Numbered from the stretch's first letter, positions 19,522 through 33,956 are shown. The stretch: 57,799 nucleotides of DNA from Candidatus Methanomethylophilaceae archaeon (GCA_017540825.1 JAFYAH010000027.1:1-57799); one strand, 5' to 3'. Translations and numbers: made by a program. Notes: generated by a model from the letters alone, not told the origin.

Positions 19522-20493
19522 CTAACGGCCTCGCATGTCCTCGAGACGCTTCCTGACGTCTTCCGCTATGTCGGCAGGGACTATGCTCAGAGCGGACTCC
19601 AGAGTCGCGCCTAAAGAGGACATCGCCTTGGACACGGACTCAGCGTAAGACTCCACCATCCTGGCGCGCTGGGCCTGCCTCTCCTTCTTGATGCCGATGG
19701 CCTCCCCTTCGGCCATTCCTTCGGACTTGCCTTCGGCCTTGCCTTGGTCGAAGCCCACCTGGGTCCAGTGGTCCCTGAACTCCTTGTCCAGATCCATGTT
19801 CATCTCTCTGCTTTGAACCAGTATGATGTCATCCCCGGATTCCAACTTAAATATTCTCATCACGAGCTGTTCGCGTTCCGGAGTCCAGTCTCCTTGGTAG
19901 AAGAGGGCATCCAAGGCTGCCAACGATTTCGAACTGGCCTTGAAAGGATCTCCGACCCGTATCCTTACGACCTCCAGGTAGTCCATGTCCTCTCCCAGGG
20001 CTGCTGGATCAAGGCCTTCGGAGACGGTCCGAAAGCGGCTCCGGAGCACCAGGCTGGACTCGCCCGCCCTCAGGTCCATGAGGACCCATGCGGAATAGAC
20101 CTTGATGAGGCTCCTGTATCCCTCCCATTCCGGCAGCTCCGTCTGGTCGAGGAGCATGCCGGCGGAATAGAGCATGGCCCTGGCCTCGTCCTCGCCCTTG
20201 GGGTTGCTGTAGAGCTGCCCTTCTACATCCAACAGCGCGGAGCGCCCGTCAGGCAGCTGTATCTTGAACACCAGATCGGGAAGCATCGCCCCTTTCCCCG
20301 ACAGGATCTCCGAGCTCGTCGGAGAGATGCGCCCGTCCTCCATCATCTCGACCAGCTCGTCCTCGCTGAGACCTTCCAGCTCTGGCACGAAGATGCCTAT
20401 GATCTTGGAAAGGACGCGCTTGTCGCGAATCAGCGCCTTGAAGCGCCGGTCGTGCCCCGGGTTCCATGAGTCCCTCCGCCTCTTCTTCGCCAT
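19522..20493 (-). CDS. Rpn-family PD-(D/E)XK nuclease / putative transposase
   Basis: The protein has 323 residues. An N-terminal PD-(D/E)XK domain is visible as PGHDRRFKALI, DLVFKIQLPDGRSALLDVEGQ (in part) and AMLYSAGML…SLIKVYSAWVL. This is the arrangement of the recombination-promoting nuclease family (PDDEXK_2). A long charged helical tail contains a GKAEGKSEGMAEGEA run. Members act as DNA endonucleases that raise recombination. It is one of the few genes in the window that ends in TAG; read-through would add only 22 residues before a second TAG. Confidence 0.85.
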   Translation of the reverse strand: MAKKRRRDSWNPGHDRRFKALIRDKRVLSKIIGIFVPELEGLSEDELVEMMEDGRISPTSSEILSGKGAMLPDLVFKIQLPDGRSALLDVEGQLYSNPKGEDEARAMLYSAGMLLDQTELPEWEGYRSLIKVYSAWVLMDLRAGESSLVLRSRFRTVSEGLDPAALGEDMDYLEVVRIRVGDPFKASSKSLAALDALFYQGDWTPEREQLVMRIFKLESGDDIILVQSREMNMDLDKEFRDHWTQVGFDQGKAEGKSEGMAEGEAIGIKKERQAQRARMVESYAESVSKAMSSLGATLESALSIVPADIAEDVRKRLEDMRGR

Positions 20494-28901: not shown

Positions 28902-29048
28902 TTGACAGTTCGAAGAAAGCCCTTTCTGCTAGAAGGCGCCCCCTGTCCCCTCCGGCCTGCTTGCCGAGAGAGACCGCAGGACCGATGCCGATCTCGGATT
29001 GAGCCCACGATCTGTCCTTTGCCTACCTCTATCTCGAAACTTGGCGCG

Positions 29049-31061
29049 TCAGAGCTGCTTCTTAAGCTCTTTGACCTTCCTCACCGCCCATTTCACTCCC
29101 ATCTTGGAGGCCCTTCTGTACATGATGATCGCCTTCGGGATGTCCATCGGGACCGTCTTTCCGGCCTCTAGGGACTTGGCCATCACGCAGCAAAGCAGCG
29201 GATCCCGCGTCCCTGCACCTATCAGGTCCCTGAGGTCCGTCTTGCCCATGGTCTGGGACATCACGCGCATGAGACTGGGTGTGACATCCTGTCCTTTGAA
29301 CAGCGCTGCCTTCTCCTTCAAGGTGATCACGCGCTCCGCTGGACCGGGATAGCTGAAGCCTTTCTCCATAAGGATCCCGTCGAACGTACGGGATATCTCC
29401 GACACCAGTTCGCCTGGATCGCTCTTGAGAACATTGAACTCCCAGTAGTTATTGCGGCCCAGCCCTTCGGCCATGTTGGAGCGGGAATTGGCGTTGGAAT
29501 AGGTAAGGACGACCAGGTTGCAGTCGGTGTACATGACGACCTCCATGAATCCTGTGAACACCGTGACAATGAGGTCGAATCCGGAAGCCCCGTTCACCAG
29601 CGATACGATGTCCCCTTCGAACCTCTTCGTCCCCGGTATCTCTTCCTGGGAGGGGAATGGAGTGTTCGTATAGACGTCGTACCCCCTTTCGAGGAACAGG
29701 CGCGAAAGGCCGTCCATTACGTCCTTGGTGTTCTGCTTCTCCGCTTCGGACCTCAGCTCTATCGAGTTCCCGTAAGGGTTCAATAGAACCGAGCGGGGCC
29801 CCTTGAAACCGGACCTCTTCAGCCGTCTGACATCGATGCCCATCGTATCCATGATGGAAAGGGCTGGCTCCTCCAAGCGCCTGGCCACCCCCGTGTATAT
29901 GCTGAGGTCTATGTCCCCGTGGAACGTCGCTCCAGGGTACATAGGCTTGTGCGGGACCACCGCGAACCTGCTGTCCGAGTAGTAGTTCATCGAGAGGTAC
30001 ATGTGCAGGCACTTCAGCTCGCCCTTCGACATTACGGCGCCGTCCACTCCCAGAAGGCTGGGGAGGTCCTTCGCCGACTCGGTGACGACGAGGGTGACGT
30101 CGGAGTAGTCCAGCCCGTCGTATTTGGCCAGCCACCTGTAGTTGTCGCCCATCGGGTAGAACGATGTGACCAGGAACCTCCCTCCCCTAGCGGACAGCTT
30201 GTCGTATAGGCATTTCCCTATGGCGTACTTCGCCTCGATGTCACGGAACGTGATCGCTTCCAGCCTTCCGTCGGACTTGCGGCCAGCATAGTATCCGGCC
30301 TCGTTCAGTACGCGGACGTCCACTATGGCGTTGGAAGGGACCTTCCCTAGCTCGGAGCCCGTCCTCGGAACATGCACGGAACCCACATCCGTTTTGGAAG
30401 CGAAGGCCCTGGACTTCAGAAGCTGCCTCTTCGCCCTGCTCTTGCTGCCGTAAGGGCAGTATACGAACACGGTCCCAGGCCCTTCCTTGACGCTCTTGTT
30501 GGTGCTGAACTTGAGATAGCACCTGCGCTCCCCGTCGTCGGGACAAAGGGTCCCGTACATCTCGGGCAGCTCATGGTCAGGGCAAATATAGCGGCCAGGG
30601 CGGACGCCGAACTGCGCGAGCAAGCAGAAGAGGGCGCGGATCTCGGAAAGGGTCCCGCATAGAACGATCTCCCCATTGACGAAGATATCAGGGTTGATGG
30701 TGCACTACAATTCTGCGCCACTCTTATGCTTTATGATGGGATTGTCCGAATAGAGCGTATGGAACGCGGCCATGACGTCGCGCTCGGTACCTACGCCGTT
30801 GAAATACATCTTCGAAAGCCACAGCCTCCCCCAGAACTGGTCGATGTTCCTGCGGGCCACCTCCAGCGCTTCGGCGTGATGCTTCGGGCTGTCTGAGCAG
30901 AGCAGGGCGTTATACAGCTCCTTGTCCCCGAACGACCCGCCGCTGTTCACCGCTTTGATGGCCTTTATCACCTTCGCGATGCTAACGGGGTCGGATATCC
31001 CTCTGAGCAGCTTCCTGCTAAGCATAACGAGTTCGGCATCAGGCTCTTCGGCGCTTCCCAT
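29049..31061 (-). CDS. Sel1-repeat / glycosyltransferase-like protein A with in-frame UAG (predicted pyrrolysine 119)
   Basis: A single frame of 670 residues is interrupted only by UAG at 30705-30707. Residues 1-118 hold Sel1-type helices (LSKMYFNGVGTERDVMAAF). After the UAG come conserved CTINPDIFVNGEIVLCGTLS and RYICPDHELPEMYG. A central domain follows (MGDNYRWLAKYDGL…LVVTESAKDL…SVLLNPYGNSI…GYDVYTNTPF…GTKRFEGDI…DLIVTVFTGFMEVVMYTD) whose order recalls GT9-type GT-B glycosyltransferases. A last Sel1 helix pair lies at ~640-670. No start codon with a Shine-Dalgarno exists after the UAG. The paralogue at 31393-33405 has the same length and the same UAG. TATA ATTAATTTAG lies ~25 nt upstream of 31061. 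Confidence 0.85.
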
Positions 31062-31392
31062 TCTATCAAAAACAGAAGACTAAATTAATAGGTTAATAAA
31101 CCTAGCAGTAGTTACTCAACGAAGTTGTCACTAGTCAGTATTAAAAGAAGATGGCCATTTTTAGTAAACTGGCCATCCGAGGAATTTAAAAACTACCAAC
31201 TGTTTGTCAGACGCATCCTTCAATTCATGCCCAGATTTCGACGATCATCGATACCCGTTGTGATGTGCATTTCGAGATGGATTTCCAGTTTGCCTGGAAT
31301 GATGCGACAAGGCCATTCATGCTTGCATTTCCTGGCGTCTGGATTCGGACTACGACAGGTGGCGAATCGCCGTATATCGACACACATGCGTT
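31062..31392. other. Spacer between paralogues A and B
   Basis: Contains the promoter of A (TATA ~31080-31089), the shared element at 31111-31131, and a hairpin GATGGCCA/TGGCCATC at 31150-31157 and 31170-31177 with a 12-nt loop. The remainder (31180-31392) shows no gene; it may be the 3' untranslated part of B. Confidence 0.5.
31111..31131 (-). promoter_or_regulatory. Upstream element shared by paralogues A and B (copy A)
   Basis: On the minus strand GTGACAA-N5-GTTGAGTAA sits ~50-70 nt upstream of the start codon of A and upstream of its TATA box. The same element lies at nearly the same distance upstream of B (33457-33477). It is a candidate activator or repressor site. Confidence 0.45.
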
Positions 31393-33405
31393 TCACTTGC
31401 CCGCCTGCAGCTTCTTCAGCTCGATGACCTTCCTCTTCGCCCATGGGACTCCGCCCTTAACGGCCTTTCTGTACCACTTTATCGCCCCGGCTATGTTCTT
31501 ATCGGACTTGACGCCTGTCTCCATGGCCTTGGCTCCGATGCAGCACAAGAGCGGGTCAGTGGTGCCATTCTGGAGCAGCACCTGCATTTCACTCCTGCCG
31601 ATGGTCGACCCCACCGTGCGAACCAGCCTGGGAGTGACTTTCTGTCCGCTGAAAATGGCGGCCTTCTCTTTATACGGAAGCAGGCGTTCTGTCGAACAGA
31701 CAGGCTTGTCCGAAGCCATCCCCGGCAACCCGCAGAAAACCTCCATTATCCTGTCTGCTACCTCCTCGGGGCTGTTTTTAAGAGCGTCGATTTCCCAATA
31801 GTTGTCATGGCCTAGGCTCTTGGCCATACGCTTGCGGTTGTTCCTGCCGGAAAAGCACAGAACCACCAAGTTGCAGTCGGTATACATGACCACTTCCATG
31901 AATCCCGTATGGACCGAGACGACGAGGTCGAATGCGGATATCCCCTTGATCAGGGTGAGAATGTCCCCTTCAAACCTCTTCGTCCCAGGCAGCTCCTTCT
32001 GTTCGATAAAGGGGGTGTTGGTGTAGACCGCATACCCTTCATCGAGGAACAGCCGCGAAAGCCTCAGCATTATCTCGAAAGTATTCTTCTTCTCAGCCTC
32101 GGACCTTGCTTCGATGGAGTTCCCGTAGGGGTTCAGAAGGACGGAACGAGGCAGGTCCATCCCTGACCTCCTCACAGGCTCGCCAAAACCCTCGACAGGG
32201 TCGACGGCTGACAGCGCTGGCTCCTTGCAGCGCCTCGCGATCCCTTTTAGCTGCCTGGTGTCCATGTCCGAATGGAACGTGACCCCGGGATGCAGAGGCT
32301 TGTACGGGACCATGACGAATCTTGGATCGGCATGATAGTTCATCGAAAGGTACATGCGCAGACACTTCAGGTCGCCCCTGGATACGACGGCACCTTTGAC
32401 ACCCAGCAGACCCGGAAGGTCCTTCGCGGACTCCGTGACGATGAACGTCACATCGGAATAGTCGAATCCGTCGTATTTGGCCAACCACCTGTAGTTGTCT
32501 CCCATGGGGAAGAAAGATGTTATCAGGAAACGTCCCCCTCTGGCCGACATCCTTCCATAGATCCCTTTGCCAATCCTATAGCCTGTCTCCATATCGGAGA
32601 TAGAGACGGCGGTCAGGATGCCGGCCTTGCGAAATACATAGAACCCCGCCTCGTTGATTGCACGGGTGTCGATCGCCTTGGTCCTCGGCACCGCTCTGAG
32701 CTCCGAGACCTTCTTTGGCGTATAGGCTGAGGCCGGGTCGCGATCCCGGCAGCTGTTATAGATCAGTAACTGTCTATCGGCACGGCTCTTTTTGCCGTAC
32801 GGGCAGTAGACGAGCACCGTCCCAGAACTTTTCTTCAGCTTCCTGTTCGTGCTGAACCTGATGTAGCACCTCTCCTTCTCGTCCTGGGGACAAGGGGTCC
32901 CATACATCTCGGAAAGCTCATTATCGGGGCAAATGTAGCGGTCGGGACGGACTCCGAACTGTGCGAGCACGCAGAATAGGGCGCGGACCTCGGAAAGCGT
33001 CCCGCATAGAACGATCTCCCCATTGACGAAAATATCAGGGTTTATCGTGCACTACAGATTCACGCCGTCGCAGACGTGATCGATCGGGCTGCCGGAATAT
33101 AGGATATGAAGGGCCTCCTTGACATCGCGCTCGGTCCCTATGCCGTTGAAATACATCTTGAACAAGCTGATTTTCGACCACTGCTTGTCCATGTTGCCGC
33201 GGACCAGATCCAAGGCCTCTACATGGTCATCGGGGTTGTCGGAGCACATGAGAGCATCGTAAAGGTCGTAGGCTTCGGCCTCCCCCCTGGAGACAGCTTT
33301 CCTGATTTCGTCTATCGGCGCCTGCCCGCTTCCAGGCGCTGAAATTGAACCTGCTCTGCTCGGACAGGTTCCATTTTCTCTCTTTGCTTTTACTATTCTT
33401 TGCAT
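31393..33405 (-). CDS. Sel1-repeat / glycosyltransferase-like protein B with in-frame UAG (predicted pyrrolysine 118)
   Basis: Paralogue of A with exactly the same length (2013 nt, 670 residues) when started at the ATG at 33405. That start is supported by a TATA box (TTAATATTAGA, ~33434-33444). UAG at 33052-33054 is residue 118. The flanks LFKMYFNGIGTERDVKEAL before it and CTINPDIFVNGEIVLCGTLS after it mirror A. The glycosyltransferase-like core keeps MGDNYRWLAKYDGFDYSDV, SVLLNPYGNSI, YAVYTNTPF, GTKRFEGDI and VSVHTGFMEVVMYTDCNLV. The C-terminal Sel1-like helices end in KWYRKAVKGGVPWAKRKV. The protein looks cytoplasmic, with no signal peptide. Substrate unknown. Confidence 0.85.
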
Positions 33406-33456
33406 AGATATCTTGAAATTAGCTTTTTTTGTTCTAATATTAAAAAGAGCACATGT

Positions 33457-33477
33457 CTTACTCAACAGGTTTGTCAC
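33457..33477 (-). promoter_or_regulatory. Upstream element shared by paralogues A and B (copy B)
   Basis: Minus-strand GTGACAA-N5-GTTGAGTAA, ~52-72 nt upstream of the ATG at 33405 and just beyond its TATA box; the counterpart of 31111-31131. Confidence 0.45.
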
Positions 33478-33956
33478 GACAGCATGCTCTGAAAAACGCG
33501 GAATATATGACCGCAGGCTGCATGCGTCTCCTTTCCAGCCCGGTTCGTTCCTGCAAAACGCGGATCTGCTTGCTGAAGGCCGCTCGATTCAGTCGTTAGA
33601 CGAAAGAGAGGCCCTAGCTAACAAAATGGCGACCAGGACATCGAACGCCGTTGACCGCACCGCGTCTTTCCGCCGGTCGGCACAGGATATGGAAGACGAC
33701 AGGAACCTTCCAATCATCTTTATAAATCAGTTCAACATTCGGCACTCAAGGAAGAGACGGCTTTTCCTGTTCACTATATCACGATCATAACCGGGCTGAG
33801 AAGCCCTGGCAGAGGGGCGAGGACGCAGAAGTCCTGAACCGCAGACCCTATCCAGCCTAAATCACAGCAGCCGGCAGGCGTCCGGCTTGAACAAAATGCG
33901 CGTGCAGTGGAGCAGACGGGCTAGATTCTTTTCCGCAGACCCATAGGAGGGTCAGC
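33478..33956. other. Intergenic region upstream of dnaG with two small hairpins
   Basis: No convincing gene is present; an open plus-strand frame at 33413-33790 lacks protein-like features. Two hairpins sit close together: GGGCT-GAGA-AGCCC (33793-33806, a GNRA-type tetraloop) and AGGAC-GCAGAA-GTCCT (33820-33835). They may belong to a dnaG leader or a small RNA. GGAGG at ~33945 is the dnaG ribosome binding site. Confidence 0.4.

Follow-up and report, generated by a model that had tools for sequence, protein, structure and literature searches.

Two tandem paralogous genes of a Candidatus Methanomethylophilaceae archaeon, A and B, are each interrupted by a single in-frame UAG, and in both genes this codon is very probably read through as pyrrolysine (Pyl), such that each would encode one protein of about 670 residues. 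The genes lie in a stretch of 57,799 nucleotides (the window, by which the whole stretch of DNA analyzed is meant) and their features are collected in Table 1. In the mechanism proposed here, this member of the Methanomassiliicoccales would decode UAG genome-wide through a tRNA-Pyl/PylS pair, with A and B as intact genes. The ribosome would insert Pyl at codon 119 (A) or 118 (B) and continue through to a protein that opens with Sel1-like helices, has a Rossmann/GT-B-like middle, and closes with a Sel1 repeat. The UAG would derive from a mutated sense codon (the nearest paralogues have Lys or Arg) and would predate the divergence of A from its counterpart in the congeneric MAG SIG7, while the UAG of B would have been either inherited or copied in by gene conversion.

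Table 1. Features of genes A and B, with coordinates counted from the first nucleotide of the window.
Feature	Coordinates	Strand	Remarks
Gene A	29049..31061	-	predicted 670-residue protein with UAG as Pyl; Sel1-like N-terminal part, Rossmann/GT-B-like middle, C-terminal Sel1 repeat
Gene B	31393..33405	-	tandem paralogue of A; predicted 670 residues with UAG as Pyl; 57% identical to A
In-frame UAG of A	30705..30707	-	codon 119
In-frame UAG of B	33052..33054	-	codon 118
N-terminal Sel1-like helical part of A	30714..30959	-	residues ~35-116; ends just ahead of the UAG
Rossmann/GT-B-like part of A	29337..30356	-	residues 236-575; weak fold call
C-terminal Sel1 repeat of A	29097..29174	-	residues 630-655
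Best-scoring A/B gene-conversion tract in A	30540..30695	-	~codons +4 to +56 past the UAG; edges approximate, UAG possibly included
Matching tract in B	32887..33042	-	same gene-conversion test
20-bp element GTGACAANNNNGTTGAGTAA	31112..31131	-	51-70 nt upstream of A
20-bp element GTGACAANNNNGTTGAGTAA	33458..33477	-	53-72 nt upstream of B

Both genes are 2013 nt long, the frame of each is open except for the one UAG, and the two UAGs share one alignment column. The frame across this codon reads TERDV...ELO-CTINPDIFVNGEIVLCGT in A and TERDV...NLO-CTINPDIFVNGEIVLCGT in B, and in the first 27 codons past it the genes differ at six codons, with one, zero, and five differences at codon positions 1, 2, and 3, respectively. 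The coordinates, the two UAGs, and the six codon differences had been reported in the initial annotation of this DNA and were confirmed base for base, as was the likeness of the flanking peptides, with TERDV and CTINPDIFVNGEIVLCGT present in both frames. The assignment of ATG 31061 and ATG 33405 as the starts is supported by the 20-bp element common to the upstream regions of the two genes (Table 1). Exact matches to this element occur in the genome solely at these two places, and it is absent from SIG7 when searched to two mismatches; it is possible that the element is a shared regulatory site or a remnant of the duplication.

The capacity to decode UAG is present in the host genome (G000), a draft of 2.37 Mb in 73 contigs that is 95.6% complete. 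The search for pyl genes suggested by the initial annotation recovered all of them: a tRNA-Pyl with the anticodon CTA (L022:3329-3399), PylS above cut-off at 255.5 bits, and PylB, PylC, and PylD, which exceed the NCBIfam cut-offs and are encoded in one cluster with pylS. The pyl genes occur downstream of a UAG-bearing mtmB with the GVOGPET site, and each of the eight mtmB copies detected across four congeneric genomes has one UAG. The strongest independent evidence of UAG decoding in this genome is the gene for replication protein A (PRK07218 family; L023:11547-13550 (-), contig C1), which has a UAG at residue 463 in a column that is Lys in 11 congeners, with a stop within the gene being absent from all other genomes searched. 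Efficient termination at UAG would truncate this essential protein, which implies that UAG is routinely read through.

Additionally, Pfam domains extend through UAG in MtmB, an integrase, a NADAR protein, and the OB fold of replication protein A. ORFs that end in UAG continue as coding sequence in 16 of 29 cases in the host genome and 10 of 13 in SIG7; these are crude values from sampled genome stretches, as UAG usage was estimated with a simple home-made gene caller for which some calls are wrong-strand ORFs, and should be read as rough numbers. In a 359-kb sample, roughly ten well-scoring genes nevertheless appear to end at UAG, mostly with another stop soon after, which leaves room for some termination at this codon. 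For two other UAG genes used as controls, relatives were distant or none were found.

The distribution of the family and the state of the UAG column among its members provide a second line of evidence. A single-protein search over 147 genomes of the order identified relatives in four, all within one genus. Beyond the known copies, a class-wide profile search (400 genomes) returned Sel1-repeat matches alone, and viral contigs encoded no relative. The resulting alignment has eight members from four species of the genus: A, B, four copies from SIG7 (G080; contigs include SUSZ01000013.1), of which three are complete and one is longer and Sel1-rich, and one copy each from G092 and G084. The column is UAG in A, B, and SIG7 copy 1 (L016:3871-3873), AAA (Lys) in SIG7 copy 2, CGC (Arg) in SIG7 copy 3, CTG (Leu) in both G092 and G084, and GCA (Ala) in the long SIG7 copy. 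The reading frame is unbroken through the column in the five sense-codon copies, and this continuity indicates that the two halves are one protein.

SIG7 copies 1 and 2 are likewise arranged in tandem, and they are flanked by a Vsr-like gene and a YbjQ-like reading frame on the side that these occupy in the window, a layout which makes A and SIG7 copy 1 likely positional counterparts. The initial annotation had proposed a new family of Pyl proteins, and this was overstated. As judged from the genomes searched, the family is genus-restricted with UAG in some of its members; because three of the eight carry it, with K, R, L, L, and A in the remaining five, Pyl is no family trait and need not be functional, and the position is substitutable. 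The accompanying proposal that UAG is read through with Pyl agrees with the full pyl set, the reading of UAG in other genes, and the form of the sense-codon relatives, which are fused and in no case consist of a stop followed by a separate downstream gene.

Two of the SIG7 copies have UAGs at other positions. Copy 3 has its own UAG (L017:3694-3696 (+), contig C48) in the context LPGTORYESD inside the glycosyltransferase (GT)-like part, where the column is Lys in A, B, copy 1, G092, and G084. The long copy (L020:233-3388 (+), contig C45) is 1051 residues in length and bears numerous additional Sel1 repeats on either side; its UAG occurs close to the N terminus, at residue 32, with the start either before or after that codon.

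With respect to the role of the residue, we infer efficient readthrough with insertion of Pyl, which would serve here as a lysine-like substitute that the protein tolerates and would have no catalytic function. Such a lysine-like role is suggested by K and R at this column in the closest paralogues. Between A and SIG7 copy 1, residues are 62% identical and fourfold-degenerate sites are identical at 75 of 200, from which an unconstrained triplet would be retained in ~5% of cases. That A and SIG7 copy 1 both keep the UAG is in line with an averagely constrained codon, and thus offers mild evidence for constraint at the codon and none for a need for Pyl chemistry. It is unlikely that the UAG is kept by selection, whether as a switch on Pyl supply between a short Sel1 protein and a full-length one or through a structural or chemical role of Pyl; if this were true, the UAG subgroup would be a functional Pyl protein outside of methylamine metabolism.

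The more specific possibility of a dual product, whereby Pyl insertion competes with termination and the ratio of a short Sel1-only protein to the full-length one follows Pyl supply (methylamine status), is considered improbable. In three genes from two species the UAG sits where two domains meet, as such an arrangement would have it, but routine readthrough is implied by the UAG within the gene for replication protein A, and the K and R paralogues can yield the long form alone at this column. While UAG is an apparent stop in other genes, and a passage of PMC4153887 cites substrate-regulated Pyl supply in some bacteria, the UAG of SIG7 copy 3 falls midway through the GT-like part, and regulatory RNA structure past the UAG was looked for and none was found. 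No PYLIS_1 (RF01982) match occurs past the UAG in 29000-33500, and no stable hairpin or RNA structure was detected there (folding z-scores of 1.07, 0.60, and -0.72, the SIG7 stretch having begun just after its UAG). A sub-threshold PYLIS_1 match is present at the mtmB UAG. A PYLIS-like element is not obligatory for Pyl (PMC3639795).

Readthrough as Pyl can also be weighed against a stop and restart, in which the UAG would end a 118-residue Sel1-like protein and the downstream part would be separate with its own start. UAG can terminate genes in this genome and the codon is close to the point where the helical part gives way to the first Rossmann-like strand in the structure models (pLDDT <50 around the UAG), but this reading is very unlikely in light of the sequence past the UAG. 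In agreement with the initial annotation, the first in-frame start candidates are a TTG in A and a GTG in B, both at +28 and both without a Shine-Dalgarno, and in SIG7 copy 1 the first start codon is not reached until +46; all of these sit within conserved coding sequence. The codons ahead of them are under purifying selection. Over the 44 aligned codons that follow the UAG, A differs from SIG7 copy 1 at 6/5/24 sites in codon positions 1/2/3 (p = 2e-5 for the third-position excess), and B differs from it at 7/4/27 (p = 2e-6). The excess persists in the first 27 codons, ahead of any start in A, B, or SIG7 (3/1/11, p = 0.002 for A; 4/1/15, p = 0.0002 for B), a stretch that would be untranslated were UAG a terminator. 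The dN/dS across the UAG, a check proposed in the initial annotation, is well below 1 on either side (~0.3 downstream), and the column is crossed without a break in five relatives.

It should be noted that the initial annotation had read selection from the A/B comparison itself. Selection is clean in the comparisons to SIG7, whereas the near-identity of A and B past the UAG is in part the product of gene conversion. Among A, B, and SIG7 copy 1, sites at which two of the three sequences agree were taken as informative; A and B are the agreeing pair at 31% of these overall but at 35 of the 46 that fall within codons +4 to +56 (permutation p = 0.0002), and A/B third positions in the tract are 70-80% identical versus ~45% elsewhere. 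As the low third-position divergence near the UAG is largely this conversion tract, the A/B comparison overstates selection. RNA-level selection lowering synonymous change past the UAG was ruled out, since third positions are not conserved between A and SIG7 or between B and SIG7, which instead indicates A/B gene conversion. The tract starts at or beside the UAG, and consequently the UAG of B may be copied from A. Trees that include the converted region weakly group the three UAG genes as a clade (support 53/27); without that region, the clade was not recovered, yet was not rejected (p-AU 0.11). Either a single origin of the UAG or an origin plus conversion is possible.

A conversion tract adjoining the UAG, together with five congeneric relatives that lack the codon, would be compatible with A and B being pseudogenes through which a fixed nonsense mutation was spread, but ~550 further codons remain open in both genes under the downstream constraint described above and the SIG7 copy with the same UAG is likewise open and constrained, making this highly improbable. 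Sequencing or assembly error, conceivable in a draft of so many contigs, is refuted by the occurrence of the UAG at two loci with different flanks and its independent recurrence in the SIG7 assembly.

The predicted readthrough product would join parts of differing character. Both ends resemble solved Sel1 proteins by profile (4bwr, E = 7e-10; 8sxq, E = 3e-8), though the single proteins fall below the gathering cut-off of PF08238 (Sel1), with 18.5 and 24.1 versus 30.7 bits. The ends are thus like those of Sel1-repeat proteins, but the large middle is not Sel1. Two structure models have a pLDDT of ~60 (dropping below 50 around the UAG), and Foldseek searches with these returned weak matches to macrolide-type GTs, UGT2B15, and WaaC, with other Rossmann-like folds matching about equally. 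No GT-B or GT9 sequence family matched, nor did any Pfam family match the middle part, and the likeness to GT-B glycosyltransferases (UGT-like, GT9 heptosyltransferases) is therefore a weak likeness of fold in low-confidence models. Of the Sel1 plus glycosyltransferase-like architecture described in the initial annotation, the Sel1 assignment is upheld by profile and the glycosyltransferase label is weakly supported; any enzyme activity of the putative GT-B/Rossmann-like part is uncertain.

Borrel et al. (2014; PMC4153887) predicted in-frame UAGs in 16 genes of 'Ca. Methanomethylophilus alvus' other than those for methyltransferases; for half of the 16, homologues in two related genomes lack the UAG. 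The set includes a Sel1-domain protein (AGI86303.1) and glycosyltransferase-like proteins, UAG stop usage was 1.6%, and the authors reasoned that such a cell would stably retain any UAG that emerged within a gene's coding part (PMC4153887). A and B share with these genes the same order, low UAG stop usage, and the presence of UAG outside of the methyltransferases. Conversely, the M. alvus examples are single genes for which conservation of the UAG site in related species was not shown, whereas the column discussed here is kept in three genes from two species. With Pyl in non-methyltransferase proteins, including a Sel1 protein, already predicted in 2014, A and B are a new example of a known phenomenon, to which this analysis adds a UAG site common to three genes and two species, the replacement states in relatives, and a gene-conversion history.

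The in-frame UAGs of MtmB, MtbB, and MttB are decoded by the same tRNA and synthetase, and the mtmB of this genome has one. In MtmB, Pyl is catalytic. MtmB belongs to another protein family (A and B have no match to PF05369, a methylamine methyltransferase family, for which the mtmB of this genome scores 759 bits) and has UAG in all copies found, unlike the relatives of A and B with K, R, L, or A. Like A and B, replication protein A is encoded by an ordinary gene that appears to tolerate a UAG in place of a sense codon. Its UAG is private to the host species and its column is Lys in all aligned relatives, whereas the site in A, B, and SIG7 is cross-species and variable among relatives. A 2025 Science paper reportedly describes archaea that read all TAG codons as pyrrolysine, and the A/B case fits this picture of genome-wide TAG as pyrrolysine. 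The persistence of a UAG in two species, in a protein unconnected to methylamine, provides a tractable case for setting neutral lysine-like replacement against maintenance by selection. Standard-code annotation of these methanogens cuts genes, with the essential replication protein A among them.

Several other genes have in-frame UAGs, including those for the NADAR protein (L029:8639-9124 (-)), the phage-type integrase (L031:471-1460 (-)), an ArsR-type HTH and methyltransferase fusion (L035:721-2235 (-)), and a DUF6270/Sel1 protein with two (L030:3165-5159 (+)). Second mtmB copies are present in all four congeneric genomes (G000:C57:23515-24897, G080:C17:64405-65799, G084:C56:68918-70297, and G092:C38:26799-28184), and each of these matches spans one UAG plus one TGA, the latter probably being the true stop overrun by the alignment. 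Within the window, a gene at 19522-20493 (-) ends in UAG with an in-frame extension of 23 codons until the next stop of any kind, and this UAG is apparently either the true end of the gene or the site of a short Pyl extension.
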